This document shows, in pieces, positions 3,101 to 45,123 of a stretch of DNA of 64,000 nt. Within the stretch, counting starts at the first letter, position 1. Each line of letters starts with the position of its first letter. The stretch is taken from NCBI GenBank assembly GCA_021156365.1, contig JAJNDK010000006.1, forward strand, positions 124,001 to 188,000, written 5' to 3'. A program made the position numbers and the translations under genes. The DNA comes from Bacteroidota bacterium (GTDB taxonomy: Bacteria > Bacteroidota > Bacteroidia > B-17B0 > Aurantibacillaceae). The notes below the pieces were generated by a model. The model was not told the DNA's origin. It searched no databases and was given only the letters and a program-made list of their open reading frames with translations.

Positions 3101-4120
3101 TTACATATAGATCGGGCAGGGTCTTTGTTTCGGAACAAAAGCTTTCGGTTTCTGAATGATACAGATCACCCCGAATTCAATGGCGCCTCTTCGGTTCGTA
3201 GCAGCTTTGAAAGCAGAAGTATTAATGTCGTAGCTCATGCCGAACTGCCAGTTCCTGAAATCATATCCGATCCTGGTGATCAGGGCATCTTTGGCGCGCA
3301 GGTAGAAACCCATGTTTACATTTTGTTTTACTTCCGACAGGAAATTGTAGCCTGCTTTTAATCCGAAAACATTTTCTTTGTACGTGCCTTGTTTCTGGAA
3401 CAGGTATTCAGCGCTGAGGTCTATTTGCGTAGCAACAGGATAGGTGAATGACAGGTAGGTATTGAATTTCGGATCGAGTTGAATATCCTCGTTCTTGAAA
3501 TACGAGATCTTCGGTGTGCCTAAGTGAGACAGGCCTATTCCCAATGTTACGGCTGAGCGTTGTTTGATCCGGTACTGAAGCGCCATTCCGGTATTGATAT
3601 CGAAATAGGTCCTTTTCATTAAAGGAAAATTCTCACCGGTGGAAAGCGCAGGGTTGTATGCATCGCCGTCCCACTGACTATCGAAAGTCAGTTTGTTCGT
3701 GCGGAAACCTACATTTGAAATGCCTGGCTGTAAACCAAGACTGAGAAAAAGATTGGAATCGGCCGACAGCATATGAATATAACTAAGCGGAATGTAGAAT
3801 TGCGTGGTGCCGTATTTACTATCTCCTGCCACATCATTGTTGAACAAGATGCCTGCTCCTACGCGGTTGCTTTTTAGTTTCTTCAGGTCCGTATTCATAT
3901 CCGCCGAAACAGAGACGGTGGAATACGAGACAGGAACCGTTGTCCACTGGCTCCGGTAATTGGCTGCTCCACGGTAATCTCCGTCAAAGAACCCGGTGAA
4001 AGCGGGATTGAGATTCAGTGGCGACATGCTGAATTGCGAGAAATGAATATCCTGGGCAAACGAAATGCAGCTCAACAAGGTAAGCAGGAACAGCAGGTAT
4101 GTATGTAAATGTTTTTTCAT
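3101..4120 (-). CDS. PorP/SprF family T9SS-associated outer-membrane protein
   Basis: This is a 339-residue PorP/SprF-family outer-membrane protein. The signal peptide MKKHLHTYLLFLLTLLSCISFAQ is followed by the family start DIHFSQFSMSPLNLNPAFTGFF and YRGAANYRSQW. The rest is a membrane beta-barrel pattern with aromatic strand ends (GMALQYRIKQRSAVTLGIGLSHLG, YDFRNWQFGMSYD). In Flavobacterium, SprF is needed for secretion of the type-B cargo SprB, and relatives are thought to pair with the type-B cargo encoded beside them. Here the gene is the last of a three-gene minus-strand unit. Its ATG lies 1 bp after the stop of a type-B cargo gene, so translational coupling is likely. Confidence 0.95.
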   Translation of the reverse strand: MKKHLHTYLLFLLTLLSCISFAQDIHFSQFSMSPLNLNPAFTGFFDGDYRGAANYRSQWTTVPVSYSTVSVSADMNTDLKKLKSNRVGAGILFNNDVAGDSKYGTTQFYIPLSYIHMLSADSNLFLSLGLQPGISNVGFRTNKLTFDSQWDGDAYNPALSTGENFPLMKRTYFDINTGMALQYRIKQRSAVTLGIGLSHLGTPKISYFKNEDIQLDPKFNTYLSFTYPVATQIDLSAEYLFQKQGTYKENVFGLKAGYNFLSEVKQNVNMGFYLRAKDALITRIGYDFRNWQFGMSYDINTSAFKAATNRRGAIEFGVICIIQKPKAFVPKQRPCPIYM

Positions 4121-4121
4121 G

Positions 4122-5771
4122 TTATCGTATGAGTGTTACATTTCCTTTTTCTTCCGTAAACTCTACTCCATCGCAGCTTGCCTTCATATAATAGCCGTAT
4201 ACACCCGGATCAGACGCCATGTTGTGGTAGGTACCATTCCATCCGTTGTTTATATTGTCCGTATCGAATACCTTTTCTCCCCAGCGATTATATACTGCAA
4301 GGTAAAAAAAATTGAGCAAAGGCCCGCGTGCCCTGAAAACATCATTGTTGCCGTCTCCGTTAGGGCTAAAAGTATTCGGAACAAAGAGAGCAGTCTTTGG
4401 GCTGATATAAATGGATTGACTTGACACAGTATCCGAGCAGTTCACGCCACCAACTGCATTCGACACGAGGGTGATCACAAAATTACCGCTGCTTTGATAT
4501 TCATAATCAAACTCGGGCAGATTTGATTGCGAGCCGTCTCCGAGGTTCCACAAATAATGTGTTGGCAATGAAGTAGGATTGACCGAATGTGCAGTAAAGT
4601 GTATTTTACTTGTGTTGCATGCGAAGGGTTCGAGTGTGAAATCAGTGGAAAAGGCGTGTTCTATAGTTACCACCGAGCTCGCGGTATCATTACACTGTGG
4701 CAGTGCAGGAGGGGCATAAGCGATCAGTGTGGCAGTATAAGTGCCTGCTGCAGGATACGTGTAATCGGGAGCGCTAACGGTTGTCACGTCACTGCCGGTA
4801 GTGGGATCACCGAAATTCCAGAGATACGAAGAAGCGCCCTGGCTGTGATTTACGAAATTCACCGTAGGCTCGCCGCAGATCACATTCGGTGCAATGGCTG
4901 CCGCTACCACCACATTCGTACAAGGCTTCACGATGAATTGAAAATCACGATACGTTTCACCAATCAATACACCATTCCTGTATTCACTTACTTTGATCCC
5001 GATCACAAAAAGCCCAAGTGTGCCCGGAGTGGCAGTCAGCAGCCCTGTCTGGGAATTAATGGAAAGCGGAACGCCACCTAACATATTCGATTGGGAATAA
5101 GGGGCCTGCCACACAACGGATGTATAGGGAGGATTGTAGGGCGGCTGCGGTTGCGGATCATTGTAATCTGCACCGTGAAAAGGATTGTAGAGGCTGTAGA
5201 CCAATGAATCACCATCGTAGTCGGTAGCGGAATGATCAAATATGAGTTTTTTGTTCAGACAAATAAAAGGTGGAGGCCAGTTGTTGAATTTTGGATTACT
5301 ATCGCTTATCACAAGGGCTGTGTCGGGAATGTGCGCGTAATAAGTCGCTCCGGCCGCCAGTGGATTAACAAGGTTAAGAATACTTTGATTGCGGCAGCAA
5401 CGTTGATAAGCTAACTGGTAACCTCCGGGAATAGGCGGAAGGTGCACGATGGTGATATAAGTAGTTACTTCATAACAAAAATCAGTTGGTACAATGGTGC
5501 AGGGATCATTGATAAGGCCCGGTAATGTATCCAGCGATACAAAAGGAACCAGTACCTGTTGTACGAATGCATTGTTCTGGTTAAAGATCCCGATCGAAGC
5601 AGGATTATCAAACGGCGGAACGCCGGTGTAGCAATCCCTGTAAACAGTCAGTTTTAGCTCGTAATCAAAATTTCCCAAATGCCGGTAATTCAATTCACCG
5701 CCGACAATATGCGTAGCTTTCATGTTCAGGGAGAACAATGCAAAAAGAGCTATGTATAAAAATACTCTCAT
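4122..5771 (-). CDS. T9SS type-B cargo protein with PKD domains, 549 aa
   Basis: This is a secreted cell-surface protein. The signal peptide ends near NMKATHIVGG, and the following GELNYRHLGNFDYELKLTVYRDC segment is a common N-terminal beta domain of Bacteroidota surface proteins. Two PKD-like domains lie at about 300-355 (SYLWNFGDP) and 390-445 (HYLWNLGDG). The last ~85 residues are a gliding-motility-associated C-terminal (CHU_C, type-B) sorting domain: LFVPNTFSPNGDGNNDVF, YNRWGEKVF, GWNGTYHN, ending GNVTLIR. The start overlaps the upstream cargo gene by 4 bp and the stop is 1 bp from the PorP/SprF start. The three products probably form one secreted complex with its outer-membrane partner. 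Confidence 0.95.
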   Translation of the reverse strand: MRVFLYIALFALFSLNMKATHIVGGELNYRHLGNFDYELKLTVYRDCYTGVPPFDNPASIGIFNQNNAFVQQVLVPFVSLDTLPGLINDPCTIVPTDFCYEVTTYITIVHLPPIPGGYQLAYQRCCRNQSILNLVNPLAAGATYYAHIPDTALVISDSNPKFNNWPPPFICLNKKLIFDHSATDYDGDSLVYSLYNPFHGADYNDPQPQPPYNPPYTSVVWQAPYSQSNMLGGVPLSINSQTGLLTATPGTLGLFVIGIKVSEYRNGVLIGETYRDFQFIVKPCTNVVVAAAIAPNVICGEPTVNFVNHSQGASSYLWNFGDPTTGSDVTTVSAPDYTYPAAGTYTATLIAYAPPALPQCNDTASSVVTIEHAFSTDFTLEPFACNTSKIHFTAHSVNPTSLPTHYLWNLGDGSQSNLPEFDYEYQSSGNFVITLVSNAVGGVNCSDTVSSQSIYISPKTALFVPNTFSPNGDGNNDVFRARGPLLNFFYLAVYNRWGEKVFDTDNINNGWNGTYHNMASDPGVYGYYMKASCDGVEFTEEKGNVTLIR

Positions 5772-8700
5772 CGTATCAGCGTTACATTTCCTTTTTTGAA
5801 GCTTTCCTGGCCGTTGGTGCAGGTATATTTTAAATAATATCCGAAAACGCCCGGATCTGATTTCATTCCTTTGAATATACCGTCCCAGCCTTTTGCAATG
5901 TCGGTTGTTTCAAATACACGCTCACCCCAGCGGTCATATACGGCAAAGTATAGGTCAGCTACAAAATTACTTCTGATGTACAGGATATCGTTCGATCCGT
6001 CTGAGTTTGGCGAGAAGGTATTCGGGATAAACACACTTCCTTCATCGCATTGCCGGCTGAGTACATAAATCGTGAGTGTATCCAGCGGGTACTGACATCC
6101 ATGGTTATCAGTTGCTATTGCGGTATAGGTAGTGGTATGCAGTGGAGTAGCAATGGGATCATAAACCGTGGTACTGGAGAGTGCATAAGGAGGTGACCAG
6201 TGGATCGTAAAAGGCGCCGAGATATTGCTGTTGATCTGGCTGCTTTCACCTTCATACAAGGTATCAGGGTTAGCAGATGTAGTAAGCAGTGTTCCGCCTA
6301 ATGTGGAAACATTTACAGTAGTTACAAGATTGGAATAACAGGTAGCGCCGAGCGAGCTGAGCGTAGTAACAATAACTGAATACGTAGTGGTAACACTCGG
6401 GCTTGCTGTTGGGTTGGGAATGCTGCTGCTGTTCAGGGATGCTGCCGGAGACCAGCTGTAAGCAATTCCCCCGCTTGCATTTAATTGTGCAGATTGATTG
6501 AAACAAATGGTTTGCGTAGCACTGATGTTAAGCGGATTAAAGCCTGCCAGTGTCAGCGGTTTTATAATTGTATCCGTACATCCGAAACTGTTTTGCACTG
6601 CCAGGCTTACAGAGTATGTGCCCGGTGTAGTGTAAGAGTGATTGGGATCCTCTGATACAGAAGAATAACTATCTCCGAAATTCCAGCTCCAGGAATTTAC
6701 TGCACCGAGGGAAGTGTTTGTAAAATTGAATGTATTCCCGCAGGCATTGGAGGTGTATGTATAATTAGCGCTTACAGTCGGATAAACGGTGATATCGATC
6801 GTATGAGTTGATGCACAAACATTGCCTCCGAAATCGGTTTCTGAAATGGTAACCGTGTAGGAAGTAGTTGAGCCGGGCATTGCAACTGGATTTGCAATAG
6901 AAGGATTGTTCAGGCCGGCAACAGGAAGCCAGGAATAACTCGTTCCTCCGCTGGCCGTTAATTGGATCGGTACAATACTATCACCACAATAGGCTCCTCC
7001 TCCGTTCGCCACATCGGGAGTCAGCAGTGTCTGCACGGGCAGGAAGACCGAATCCACACAACCCTGATCGCTGGTAACATGCAGGGAAACAGTATAGGAT
7101 CCATTTGTTGTATAGCTATGTGTTGGAGAAGTCAATGCAGAATTTGTGTTGTCTCCGAAATCCCAGTCATAGGACAAAATACCTGCGCTGATCGTAGAGA
7201 GGTTGTTGAAATCAAAAGTGCTGTTGCATGGCTGTATAGTCACTGTTGCCTGCGCATCCGGAGCAGGATGTACAATGATCCCGACAGTGTGTGTAGATGT
7301 ACAGACATTGCCGCCAAAATCGTTTTCTGAAATGGTAACAGTGTAGGTAGTAGAAACAGCAGGGCTTGCAACAGGACTTGCAATGGCCGGATTACTAAGA
7401 CCGGCAGCCGGGCTCCATGAATAGCTCGTGCCACCGCTTGCATTTAACGAAGTCGGAGTGACCACATTTGCACAATACGCTGCATCGCCGTTTGCACTAT
7501 CAGGTGTCAGTATTGTTTGCACAGGCAGAAACACAGAATCTGTACAACCATGATCGCTGGTGACATGCAGGGAAACCGTGTAGGAACCATTACCTGCATA
7601 AGTATGCGTTGGAGAGGTAACTACAGAATTTGTAGCATCATCAAAATCCCAGGCATAGGTCATTGTTCCGGAACTGATCGTAGAGAGATTGGTGAAATCG
7701 AATGTATTGGTGCAGGGCTGAATGCTCACCGTAGCCTGTGCATCCGGAACAGGATAAACAATTATGCTTACCGTTTGATCGGAAGGACATGGATTCCCTG
7801 CTGCATCGTTTTCGGAAATGGTGACCGTGTAAGTGACAGAAGCAGTAACCGTTGCGACTGGATTTGCAATGGCAGCATTGCTCAGACCGGTGGCAGGGTT
7901 CCATACATACGTACCGCCGCCGGTGGCAGTGAGGGGAACAGGATTGATACCATTTTCACAAAACGAAGCACCGCCGCTTACACTATCGGGATGCAATGTT
8001 GTTTGTACCGGGAGGAGAACAGTGTCCTTACATCCGTGATCCGAAGTAACGATAAGCTGCGTAGTGTAAGAGCCTGCTGATGCATAGGGATGTGTTATGG
8101 TTGGAGTGGAAGCAGTTCCGCTGTCGCCAAAATCCCAGGCATAGCTGAGTGTGCCGGAGCTCACTGTTGACTGGCTGGCAAAATCCCAGGTATTGGTGCA
8201 GGGCTGAAGTGTTGCAGTAGCCAGCCCATCCGGTTTCGGGAATACTGTAATCACGGTATAAGCAGTATCCCACACATTAAAGCAGGCGCTGTTCTTGGCA
8301 AGCAACACAACAGTATAAGTTCCGGGTGTGGTAAATGTTTTAACGGGGTTAAGAATAAGGGAAGTGGTATCGTTACTTCCGAAATCCCAGAGATACTGCA
8401 CGGCAGAAATACTGGTATTCGTAAAGTTTACAGTAAGTGGAGAACAACCACTCACAATATTTGATGTCATTTGTGCAACAGGAATGGCATATTCAAAATT
8501 AAATTTAAAGGTTCCGTTATTGCAATTCGAAGATTGATTCCAGTTATTGCCATACAGGGAAGTAGGCCAGGAACCGGATGTTACCGGGAAGTCATCATAA
8601 CCGTTGCATCCGGCACATACACTCTGGTAAATAATTCCTTTTTTATCGAAGCGACTGGTACCTCCATCCACATGCTCACGACTGGATCCGCCTCCGAAAT

Positions 8701-41685: not shown

Positions 41686-42906
41686 TCAGGCGATCCTCAG
41701 CAGGCGCGCCATATAAAAGCCGTCTGCATTTACTTCATCGGGATGAATGCGCAGTTCATCTTCCAGTTTCCAATCTGTGTGATTTTGCAGGAAATCTACG
41801 ATCTGTTTTTCACCTTCCGATGGCAATACGCTGCAGTTAGCATATACCATGGTCCCGCCTTTTTTGCACATCCCGGAATAATTGTCGAGGATCTTTTTCT
41901 GTATTTCGATCAGCTGAAGGATCATGGAAGGCTCCATATTCCATTTAGCATCCGGGTTCCTTTTGAATACGCCGCTCCCGCTGCAGGGCACATCCAGCAG
42001 CAACCTATCTGCGGTATTATTCAGGTTCTTTATTACTTTATCGCTATCGATCACCCTGGTTTCTATAGTTTGAATGCCGGCCCTTGCCGCTCTTTTTTTC
42101 AATACTTCCAGTTTTGCGGCATTGATATCCAGGGCGATCACTTTTCCTTTATTTTCGAGTAGCGCAGCAAGGTGCAGACTTTTGCCACCGTTTCCGGCAC
42201 AGGCATCGATTACCCGCTCGCCTTTTTTTACTCCGGTAAATTCGCTCACTTTTTGCGAAGAGATGTCCTGTATCTCGAACAAACCCTCATGGAATTCTTT
42301 CAGTGCAAATAAGGGGCGGCTGGAAAGATTTTCTATAGCAGAAGCTGTGTTGGCAACGGCCTTATTTTTTATGCGCTGTTCCCTGAGCAATTCGCTCAGT
42401 CTGTCGCGGGATATTTTGAGGGTATTGGCGCGGATGTACTGAAGGGGCTTCCCATTGAGCGCAGCAGCAAGACTATTCCATTTTTCTTCTCCAAGATCAT
42501 TGACACAATACGTGTCGAGCTCATCCGTATACGATTCCCGGAATTTCCGTATGTTTTGGTTTTCGGCAAGCCGCTGCAGGAAGATTCTTTTGTTAAAAGT
42601 GATCCGTGTCAACGGTTCCGGCAGATCCATTTTTTTGAAATAATAATAAGCGGGTAAAAAGGAGAAGGGATGTTTGAATATAAAAGCGTTGTCCTCCCCG
42701 AAACTTTCCTGCAGCAATCGCCAGTTACGGATCAGATCGTAACACAATTCCGAAAAGAATGCTTTGTCCTGTGGCTGGAGCTTCGTATGCCTGCTGAAAT
42801 ACTGGTGCAGGCATTTGTCGGCATGTTTTTTTTCGTTGAATACTTCTTTTAGGATAGAAAAAAGAGGGATGATCAGTTTTTCGTTAAAAACAACGGCAGG
42901 GAGCAT
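41686..42906 (-). CDS. RsmB/NOL1-type rRNA cytosine-C5 methyltransferase
   Basis: This is a 406-residue RNA m5C methyltransferase resembling RsmB (16S rRNA C967), with a NusB-like helical N-terminal part (FSILKEVFNEKKHADKCLHQYFS core) and a C-terminal Rossmann domain. I chose ATG 42906 because it lies 4 bp after the stop of the preceding membrane-protein gene; an upstream start at 42951 would overlap it. Seen: SSQKVSEFTGVKKGERVIDACAGNGGKSLHLA (SAM motif I DACAGNGGKS), ALDINAAKLEVLKKRA, LLLDVPCSGSGVFKRNPD (motif IV PCSG) and MVYANCSVLPSEGEKQI (motif VI with the catalytic Cys; Asn replaces the usual Thr/Ser before it). It is last in a three-gene unit. Confidence 0.93.
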   Translation of the reverse strand: MLPAVVFNEKLIIPLFSILKEVFNEKKHADKCLHQYFSRHTKLQPQDKAFFSELCYDLIRNWRLLQESFGEDNAFIFKHPFSFLPAYYYFKKMDLPEPLTRITFNKRIFLQRLAENQNIRKFRESYTDELDTYCVNDLGEEKWNSLAAALNGKPLQYIRANTLKISRDRLSELLREQRIKNKAVANTASAIENLSSRPLFALKEFHEGLFEIQDISSQKVSEFTGVKKGERVIDACAGNGGKSLHLAALLENKGKVIALDINAAKLEVLKKRAARAGIQTIETRVIDSDKVIKNLNNTADRLLLDVPCSGSGVFKRNPDAKWNMEPSMILQLIEIQKKILDNYSGMCKKGGTMVYANCSVLPSEGEKQIVDFLQNHTDWKLEDELRIHPDEVNADGFYMARLLRIA

Positions 42907-42910
42907 ATTT

Positions 42911-43936
42911 TCAGTTTTTTTTGCGGAACAAAGCCCGCGTTTCGATCCCAATCCCTTTGATGGTGATAAAGTTCAGGGGGAATTCCAGCAGTACGTGCAT
43001 CATACTGAACAGGAAAAGTATTTTAAAGCCGAAGTTATAATCGACCAGGTAGGAAACAACGGCTCCTATCCAGATGACAAGGATCAGGATCATTCGTTTT
43101 TTAGAGACCTCGTGCCATTTGATCACCGATGTTTTGGAGAACCAGTTCAGGTAATGATACGTGTAAGCAAAGGCAATGAAACGCGCTACAACAATGGCAG
43201 CAGGTTGGATAAACAATAAATTATCGGAAAAATCGAGCGCCTGCTCCAGGTTGGTAACACTTCCGTCCAGCCCGAAAAGCAATAACAGAGATTTGTTGAT
43301 GACATTAAAATTGATCAGGGACTTTTCAACGAACTGCTGAACAGGTGCGGAAGGACCGGAAGGCACAAAAAAGAAAAGACTGGCGGCACAGGCAATAAAA
43401 ACGAAAAGGGAAGCAATTCCCGTCTTGCTCTTGTTTTTTAATGCTCCGTACAAAATAAAAAGTCCCGTGAAAACAAAAACATGGATGATGGTTGGAAGCA
43501 TGATCCCTACCCAGAATAGCGTCGACTCGTTGGTATCAGGATTAAAACCGTAAATGAAAAAAAAGACAACCACGGTCGTGATGTATTTTAGGATGGGTTG
43601 TTTGAAAAAGAAAATGATGAATGTAAAGCAAGCAGCGGTCATCAGGAACGTAACTCCAAAACGGGCCAGATACGCATCCGGGTCAAATGCGGGAATAGTA
43701 AGCAGTATGGACATCAGTAGGTAGAGCCAGATATCGCTTTTGGTTTCAATAAAAAAACTTCTTCTTTCCAGCCACGATATTTCGGTAATGTAATGAAGAG
43801 GACCTAACACGGCATATACGAACAGGAAGAGGTGAAAAGGAAAAGCAAAGGACAGCAGGGCACTGATCACCATCAACGACATATTGGTGATGTTGATGCC
43901 TTTATCTGTAGTAAGCGCTGTCTGAAATATACTCAT
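42911..43936 (-). CDS. Polytopic membrane protein of unknown function, 341 aa
   Basis: This inner-membrane protein has about nine predicted transmembrane segments (for example LMVISALLSFAFPFHLFLFVYAVLG, FLMTAACFTFIIFFF, IASLFVFIACAASLFFFV, RMILILVIWIGAVVSYLV) and short loops. Conserved-looking polar residues sit at the second segment end (GPLHYITEISWL), a pattern faintly like the membrane carotenoid-cleaving Brp/Blh group, but the key GxxHGxLD motif is absent, so I do not assign it. It starts within the stop codon of the sorting-domain-only gene (1-bp TAATG overlap) and ends 4 bp before the RsmB-like gene. The link with the T9SS domain protein may be functional. Confidence 0.88.
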   Translation of the reverse strand: MSIFQTALTTDKGINITNMSLMVISALLSFAFPFHLFLFVYAVLGPLHYITEISWLERRSFFIETKSDIWLYLLMSILLTIPAFDPDAYLARFGVTFLMTAACFTFIIFFFKQPILKYITTVVVFFFIYGFNPDTNESTLFWVGIMLPTIIHVFVFTGLFILYGALKNKSKTGIASLFVFIACAASLFFFVPSGPSAPVQQFVEKSLINFNVINKSLLLLFGLDGSVTNLEQALDFSDNLLFIQPAAIVVARFIAFAYTYHYLNWFSKTSVIKWHEVSKKRMILILVIWIGAVVSYLVDYNFGFKILFLFSMMHVLLEFPLNFITIKGIGIETRALFRKKN

Positions 43937-44295
43937 TATTTGATGAGCTGTACAAAACCTTTGTGCTCGAGCTTTGTAGAATTAATGGTTAACTGAATGT
44001 TGTAATAATACGTTCCATCGGGGCAGGGCATTCCACCGGTAGTGCGTCCGTCCCATGAAAAATTTTGTTTTGTTGTCTCCACTAACTTTATTCCGAAACG
44101 ATCGTATATTTCCATTTTATAGCTCTGTATCCTGCTTTCGAAATTGAAAAGCGGTTTAAAAACATCATTCATGCCATCCGAATTAGGTGTGAAAATATTC
44201 GGCACGAATAAGCTGTCTTTGATAGATTGGGCTTTCGAAGGCATTGCCAGCCACATAAAAAGGGCAAAAAAGCAATATATAAAGGTAGCTTTCAT
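43936..44295 (-). CDS. Signal peptide plus type-B sorting domain only, 119 aa
   Basis: The protein consists of a signal peptide (MKATFIYCFFALFMWLAMPSKAQS) and a complete gliding-motility-associated C-terminal domain (residues ~27-119): LFVPNIFTPNSDGMNDVF, MEIYDRFGIKLVET, FSWDGRTTGG, PDGTYYYNIQL, ending HKGFVQLIK. There is no cargo between them, whereas the other type-B proteins in this window carry 450 to 1600 residues. It has a clean reading frame and its stop overlaps the next start by 1 bp, so it is an expressed small gene and not a remnant by appearance. It could be a free sorting domain, a competitor or accessory of secretion, or a surface subunit in itself. Confidence 0.9.
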   Translation of the reverse strand: MKATFIYCFFALFMWLAMPSKAQSIKDSLFVPNIFTPNSDGMNDVFKPLFNFESRIQSYKMEIYDRFGIKLVETTKQNFSWDGRTTGGMPCPDGTYYYNIQLTINSTKLEHKGFVQLIK

Positions 44296-44376: not shown

Positions 44377-45123
44377 TTAATACACGTGCTGGCCTCCATT
44401 GATGCTGTAATTTGCGCCCGTAATAAAGCTGGTTTCGTCGCTTGCAAGGAAACAAACGAGGTGCGCTACTTCATGCGTCCCGCCGAGCCGTCCCATGGGC
44501 ACCTGCGCCACGATCTGGTTCAGTACTTTCTCCGGAACTGCCATTACCATATCCGTGGCAATATAACCGGGAGAGATCGTGTTCACCGTGATCCCGTATT
44601 TTGCTACTTCCATCGAAAGCGACTTGGTAAATCCGTGCATGCCTGCTTTTGCCGCGCTATAGTTGGTTTGCCCGAATTGGCCGCGCTGGCCGTTTACGGA
44701 AGAAATATTAATGATCCGGCCGAAGTTCCGGTCTATCATCCCCTGGATCACATGTTTGGTGCAATTAAAAACACTGTTGAGATTCGTATTGATAACCGCA
44801 TACCAGTCTTCTTTTTTCATATTGATCAACCGCGAATCTTTGGTAATACCCGCATTGTTTACCAATATATCGATCGTACCCGCTTCTTTTTCGATCTGTT
44901 CGACCATTTTACCGGTACTGTCAAAATCACTTACATCACCTTCAAAAAGCAGGGCATCGTACCCTTCCGCTTTTAATTTTGCTTTCCATTCATCGGCTTT
45001 CGCTTTGTTGCGGTAATTGCCCGCCACCGTATACCCCTCGTCGAAAAGTTTTTTGCACATGGCCGTTCCGAGGCCGCCTGTTGCACCGGTTACAAGTGCT
45101 ATCCGTTTGTTGTTCTTGTCCAT
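44377..45123 (-). CDS. phaB: Acetoacetyl-CoA reductase (PhaB type, SDR family)
   Basis: This is a 248-residue short-chain dehydrogenase. The NADP-binding motif is ALVTGATGGLGTAMCKKL (TGxxxGxG), with VNNAGITKDS. The active site is Ser in NISSVNGQRGQFGQTNYSAAKAG (Ser, Tyr, Lys as YSAAK) and INTISPGYIATDMV follows. The SVNGQ.GQFGQTNYS segment and the C-terminal SINGGQHVY are characteristic of PhaB, which reduces acetoacetyl-CoA to 3-hydroxybutyryl-CoA in polyhydroxybutyrate synthesis, rather than of FabG. No phaA or phaC gene is nearby, so the polymer pathway cannot be confirmed here. Confidence 0.9.
   Translation of the reverse strand: MDKNNKRIALVTGATGGLGTAMCKKLFDEGYTVAGNYRNKAKADEWKAKLKAEGYDALLFEGDVSDFDSTGKMVEQIEKEAGTIDILVNNAGITKDSRLINMKKEDWYAVINTNLNSVFNCTKHVIQGMIDRNFGRIINISSVNGQRGQFGQTNYSAAKAGMHGFTKSLSMEVAKYGITVNTISPGYIATDMVMAVPEKVLNQIVAQVPMGRLGGTHEVAHLVCFLASDETSFITGANYSINGGQHVY

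Follow-up and report, generated by a model that had tools for sequence, protein, structure and literature searches.

In the T9SS, type B C-terminal domains (CTDs) are viewed as tags for the transport of cargo. F. johnsoniae has 12 type B proteins, its orphan type B substrates share one unlinked shuttle, and efficient type B secretion is reported to need up to 235 residues, reaching beyond the conserved domain (PMC12618676). The sole type B protein of P. gingivalis, PG1035 (PGN_1317), binds PorP on the cell surface and has been proposed to act as a protective cap (PMC9143113). No paper on stand-alone type B CTDs was found in the open-licence literature.

The window, a 64,000-nucleotide stretch of a 5.3-Mb genome (G000) whose T9SS points to a Bacteroidota, encodes a type B CTD protein without cargo, here called P0001. 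We propose, with a probability of roughly one half for the explanation as a whole, that P0001 is a minimal type B substrate that would be exported and would form a small cap at the surface, seated on one of the shared PorP/SprF-like barrels, and that the cargo-free form is an evolved, maintained state. Tag-only proteins, if kept by selection, would demonstrate a surface role for the tag itself. Stand-alone CTDs also make it testable whether ~97 residues are enough for type B export, when up to 235 have been reported as necessary.

P0001 and its predicted fold

P0001 (Table 1) begins with a signal peptide-like stretch, read by eye as MKATFIYCFFALFMWLAMPSKA/QS, and Q23 is shared by every one of the 17 stand-alone proteins aligned; an N-terminus of this kind, likewise judged by eye, is kept in all relatives. 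The remainder is matched almost end to end by two type B CTD profiles, in both cases above the curated cut-off: PF13585 (CHU_C) aligns with residues 30–117 over profile positions 2–86 of 86 and scores 70.2 bits (cut-off 27), and TIGR04131 aligns with residues 31–118 at 60.7 bits (cut-off 35). With an E value of 5e-16 in a whole-genome search that returned 65 matches, the TIGR04131 match is not due to chance. The sequence-only reading, which described the 119 residues as a signal peptide plus a full-length type B domain, is upheld, for the signal peptide by eye and for the domain by these scores; the domain is complete as judged by the domain models, whereas efficient secretion in F. johnsoniae is reported to need up to 235 residues.

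Table 1. Features of the P0001 locus, in window coordinates
Feature	Position	Strand	Basis
RsmB-like 16S rRNA methyltransferase	41686..42906	(-)	Start taken at internal ATG (our choice)
Polytopic membrane protein, 341 aa	42911..43936	(-)	Start overlaps CTD stop by 1 bp
P0001, stand-alone type B CTD protein, 119 aa	43936..44295	(-)	ORF, HMM matches, stand-alone orthologues
Type B CTD (CHU_C), residues 30–117, predicted Ig-like β-sandwich	43945..44208	(-)	PF13585, AlphaFold2, structural match
Linker QSIKDSL, ~7 residues, sole replacement for cargo	44209..44229	(-)	Alignment of stand-alone and PKD-carrying relatives
Putative signal peptide, residues 1–22, cleavage likely before Q23	44230..44295	(-)	Read by eye
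Predicted mature part of P0001, about 97 aa			
SDR, acetoacetyl-CoA/3-oxoacyl reductase, upstream neighbor	44377..45123	(-)	TIGR01829 above cut-off; synteny with G002

A large N-terminal cargo, as in SprB-like surface adhesins, is not present in the ~97 mature residues. Stops lie in frame just 5′ of the P0001 start, and the SDR gene before it is only 81 bp away, so no in-frame cargo is hidden by a wrongly chosen start. P0001 is the shortest complete CTD protein in its genome, the next frames measuring 186, 357, and 398 aa; of the two other short TIGR04131 matches, one is a broken frame of 72 aa and the other a contig end. The 72-aa frame (L180, 566–781; C8:3565–3759 of G000) is without the PNxFTPNxDG motif and has a signal peptide-like start upstream in a different frame; it is a broken or strongly divergent CTD gene.

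Set against 42 other CTDs from G000, P0001 carries the commonest residue at 20 of the 22 most conserved positions, the exceptions being F67 in place of Trp and K119 in place of Arg. Trp occupies the position of F67 in 90% of the genome's CTDs, and recognition of P0001 could therefore differ. The type B motifs P-N-x-F-x-P-N-x-D-G-x-N-D, R-x-G, W-D-G, and G-x-Y-x-Y are kept, together with G113; their matching to the published motifs A–E (PMC12618676) is our own assignment.

An AlphaFold2 model built from 17 stand-alone sequences (mean pLDDT 82) aligns best with the CTD of RemZ as seen in the translocon of SprA and PorV (8gl8_D; Z 8.0, rmsd 2.5 Å, 74/75 residues), with the CTDs of RemA and NucA close behind (Z 7.5 and 7.3). 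Foldseek alone gave weak CTD matches, with a best E of 0.007. Many other Ig-like domains score Z 6.5–7.5 against the model, so that the fold match supports the CTD assignment without proving it, and the sequence profiles carry the assignment.

The predicted Ig/fibronectin-like β-sandwich invites the alternative that the CTD is itself functional: P0001 would be a small Ig-like protein of the surface, with a ligand or a neighbor as binding partner, and the tag would double as an active module. A Cys immediately preceding the GTY motif, at position 91, could be taken as a mark of such a module, being present in 17/17 aligned stand-alone members against 4/42 of the other CTDs in the genome. The same Cys, however, is found in the PKD-carrying relatives at the reductase locus described below, which makes it a subfamily trait that is not tied to the cargo-free state, and conservation among the stand-alone CTDs is centered on the general T9SS motifs; we consider this alternative unlikely. 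A second Cys lies seven residues later in two genera (g5 and g6) and in G008, making the pair a possible candidate for a disulfide. The rule that all stand-alone members are without the Trp of NRWG was rejected, as G006 retains it.

T9SS machinery and the proposed role of P0001

SprA is present in all five genomes tested, scoring 2398 bits in G000. The same genome encodes 65 type B CTDs (TIGR04131), far above the number in F. johnsoniae, against 23 PorP/SprF-like genes. A PorP/SprF-like gene lies within 2.5 kb downstream of 17 of the 65 CTDs and is absent there for the other 48, so an orphan substrate is normal in G000. P0001 shows no cognate pairing of the SprB-SprF type, in which PorP/SprF lies directly downstream: the next gene downstream encodes an α-helical membrane protein, and the nearest PorP/SprF gene on the contig is ~39 kb away. 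Elsewhere in the window (3170–6030, minus strand), a PorP/SprF-like gene has two type B CTD genes directly upstream.

In the cap reading that we favor, a Sec signal peptide would bring P0001 to the periplasm, the CTD would be bound in the SprA translocon, and a shared, unlinked PorP/SprF-like barrel would carry the protein out. The ~97-residue domain would then remain with the barrel, forming a small cap or stub at the surface that takes the place of a large adhesin and keeps the shuttle occupied, stable, or closed. We infer export, PorP/SprF binding, and the cap role by analogy, drawing the export steps from how type B CTDs behave in F. johnsoniae (PMC12618676) and P. gingivalis (PMC9143113) and the cap role from a speculative suggestion made for PG1035 in one paper. 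The sequence-only reading had offered three roles for a free domain, namely blocking or tuning of secretion, occupation of PorP/SprF, and assembly as a surface subunit; among these, parking on a PorP/SprF-like barrel appears to fit the literature best. The main doubt concerns length, since with an efficient signal of up to 235 residues, export of the 97-residue P0001 may be poor or may fail altogether.

Occupancy of the machinery could also serve control, with the free CTD taking up SprA or the PorP/SprF shuttles and thereby limiting or timing the secretion of large type B adhesins. If exported, a CTD without cargo must vie with cargo proteins for a common receptor, and 65 CTDs on 23 shuttles make competition plausible. 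Feedback from a small CTD protein has a precedent in PorA of P. gingivalis, an Ig-CTD protein that acts on T9SS gene expression, with the Ig domain, not a bare CTD, as the suspected sensor (PMC7712824). No link to a T9SS or regulatory gene is seen, however, in any of the genomic contexts read, and a protein found in only 21/87 family genomes is not a general control element; such a tuning role is improbable. A further conjecture, which we hold to be quite improbable, is that P0001 represents a dedicated "blank" T9SS substrate, its kind having shed cargo possibly more than once. The free secretion and anchoring domain would have been retained to occupy PorP/SprF-like shuttles and would in this way determine the choice of adhesins displayed or moved on the surface.

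Conservation of the cargo-free state and probable cargo loss

The closest homologues of P0001 in the family are also stand-alone proteins of 119 aa without cargo, one from another species of the same genus (G002, 57% identity) and one from another genus (G008, 49% identity). G002 shares the order epimerase–YbbR-like–SDR–CTD with the window, and G008 shares the order CTD–membrane protein–RsmB; both genes are thus positional as well as sequence orthologues. All main motifs and, by eye, the signal peptide are retained in the two proteins. The claim of a free, intact type B domain without cargo extends from P0001 to its relatives. Recent truncation, or cargo hidden upstream, was rejected on the basis of the in-frame stops, the 81-bp gap, and the 119-aa length of both orthologues. 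Between the CTD genes of G000 and G002, synonymous sites are saturated and dN is 0.34, pointing to purifying selection.

The earlier reading had proposed a search for other short stand-alone CTD proteins and their neighbors. A profile search found such proteins in 21 of the 87 family genomes, in two sets: P0001 with its orthologues, and a set from a locus at which the CTD gene sits between the gene for a LuxC-like acyl-CoA reductase and that for an ABC ATPase. The window gene does not lie at this reductase locus. The set found there, about 128–141 aa long, comes from 18 genomes of two genera (17 genomes of g6 and G006 of g5). In g6, the cargo-free form is under purifying selection, with dN/dS values of 0.03–0.16 for the five pairs with a usable synonymous distance. 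No CTD gene is present between the reductase and ABC genes in some g6 genomes (G054, G058), in g7, or in g10.

Stand-alone CTDs look rare outside the family. Among the best-scoring matches listed from 395 genomes of the class, two near-stand-alone CTD proteins belong to other families, of ~142 aa (G439, L253) and ~160 aa (G203, L254), with linkers of roughly 35–45 residues; the other short frames among the listed matches are contig ends. A scan of named genomes yielded no complete stand-alone CTD among 80 loci, using patterns derived from P0001 that would miss the g6 type.

At the same reductase locus in g2, g8, g9, and g4 lies a ~280-aa protein consisting of a signal peptide, two PKD/Ig-like domains, and the CTD. 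This PKD-PKD-CTD form was counted by frame size in 47 genomes, in 14 of which the locus was read or the adjoining reductase found; among the matches listed, no genome contains the stand-alone and PKD-carrying forms together. In a CTD tree that includes the 280-aa relatives, the PKD-carrying group encloses the stand-alone proteins of g5 and g6 (96/89); the reductase tree places g5 beside g6, with g7 next. The positional PKD-carrying orthologues and the nested g5/g6 group indicate that cargo was very probably lost at this locus, before the split of g5 and g6; the cargo-free form there would derive from a surface protein of roughly 280 aa by loss of its two PKD/Ig domains. Longer orthologues, which the sequence-only reading had named as the sign of recent truncation, thus occur in other genera at the reductase locus, whereas for the window gene that sign fails, the G002 and G008 proteins being as short as P0001.

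The origin of the window gene is less directly traced. In the tree with the 280-aa relatives, the G000/G002 pair and G008 fall apart, and supported branches force at least two state changes; an AU test, on 89 columns only, did not reject one stand-alone clade (p = 0.37). A single origin of all stand-alone CTDs, as given by a first tree (one clade, 100/84), was discarded as a sampling effect, the 280-aa relatives having been absent from it. The residues preceding the CTD read KDS in both G000 and G008 and QDS in G002; the PKD proteins have ADSSG or a similar sequence there. This hints at a common source, in a stretch too short to decide.

A LuxC-like acyl-CoA reductase gene also lies beside a type B CTD gene in Cytophagales (L164, L169 (Fulvivirga), L146 (Chryseolinea), L165, L168, L132, L151, L162, L154), and the reductase-CTD neighborhood seems older than the family. 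In G000 (C22:67723, L247), the reductase gene is convergent with the CTD gene of a 2262-aa frame.

Positional orthologues with two PKD domains in four genera, and the missing CTD gene at the reductase locus of others, would suit an evolutionary leftover: a short gene that has lost its cargo, serves little or no function, and persists through its place in the operon. Such a relic is disfavored by purifying selection on a gene that is intact in 17 g6 genomes, and at the window locus the putative signal peptide and main motifs have been kept at 57% and 49% identity, with synonymous saturation between G000 and G002; we rate it as distinctly unlikely.

The coupled membrane protein and comparison with known systems

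The CTD stop and the membrane-protein start share one base, CAAATAATGAG (TAATG), confirming the 1-bp overlap noted earlier from the sequence. Taken as a sign of partnership, the overlap did not hold up. The membrane protein was found in 60 of 100 relatives searched, and the gene preceding it changes across the family: it is thioredoxin-like in g2, g8, and g4, an S46-type peptidase in g9, and a TPR protein in g10, names that come from reading the sequences and not from HMM searches. Several g6 genomes have the membrane protein without a co-directional upstream partner, G054 has a long CTD protein upstream, and a stand-alone CTD precedes it in G000 and G008. No match to it was obtained in G002, which belongs to the same genus and retains the CTD gene. 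The membrane protein gene often overlaps whatever precedes it, so the TAATG coupling is a recurrent trait of this gene and speaks only weakly for a partnership; a functional pair of CTD and membrane protein was accordingly downgraded.

The 341-aa protein is modeled as a multi-helix, α-helical structure (mean pLDDT 83). It has no Pfam family beyond chance-level hits, even at E = 1, and no PDB fold match at E ≤ 0.001. Five histidines (H48, H152, H261, H275, and H314) are invariant across 13 homologues and could bind metal.

That export fails, leaving P0001 in the periplasm with another role, for example alongside this membrane protein, is very improbable: the minimal efficient type B signals reported are longer than P0001 (PMC12618676), and the two genes are coupled by 1 bp in G000 and adjacent in G008, but the membrane protein has many other upstream partners in the family and no match in G002, and the g5/g6 stand-alone proteins stand in a wholly different context.

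P0001 shares its profile matches, C-terminal position, motifs, and predicted β-sandwich with the type B CTDs described by TIGR04131 and PF13585. It differs in having no cargo, with only ~7 residues between the signal peptide and the CTD. Orphan type B substrates are like P0001 in having no adjacent PorP/SprF gene, but they are treated as putative adhesins, and P0001 has no adhesin part. PorA is, like P0001, a very short T9SS CTD protein without enzymatic cargo, and it has a regulatory effect; it differs in possessing an Ig/FimH-like domain and in interacting with PorV (PMC7712824), and since P. gingivalis has no type B protein other than PGN_1317, PorA is not of type B. The ~280-aa PKD-PKD-CTD proteins occupy the same locus as the g5/g6 stand-alone CTDs and are their closest CTD relatives, but they carry two PKD/Ig domains as cargo, and their locus is not that of the window gene. 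PG1035 and P0001 are both of type B, and a cap role is proposed for both; PG1035 has a known PorP partner, and its likeness to P0001 is a functional analogy at the level of the type B class only.
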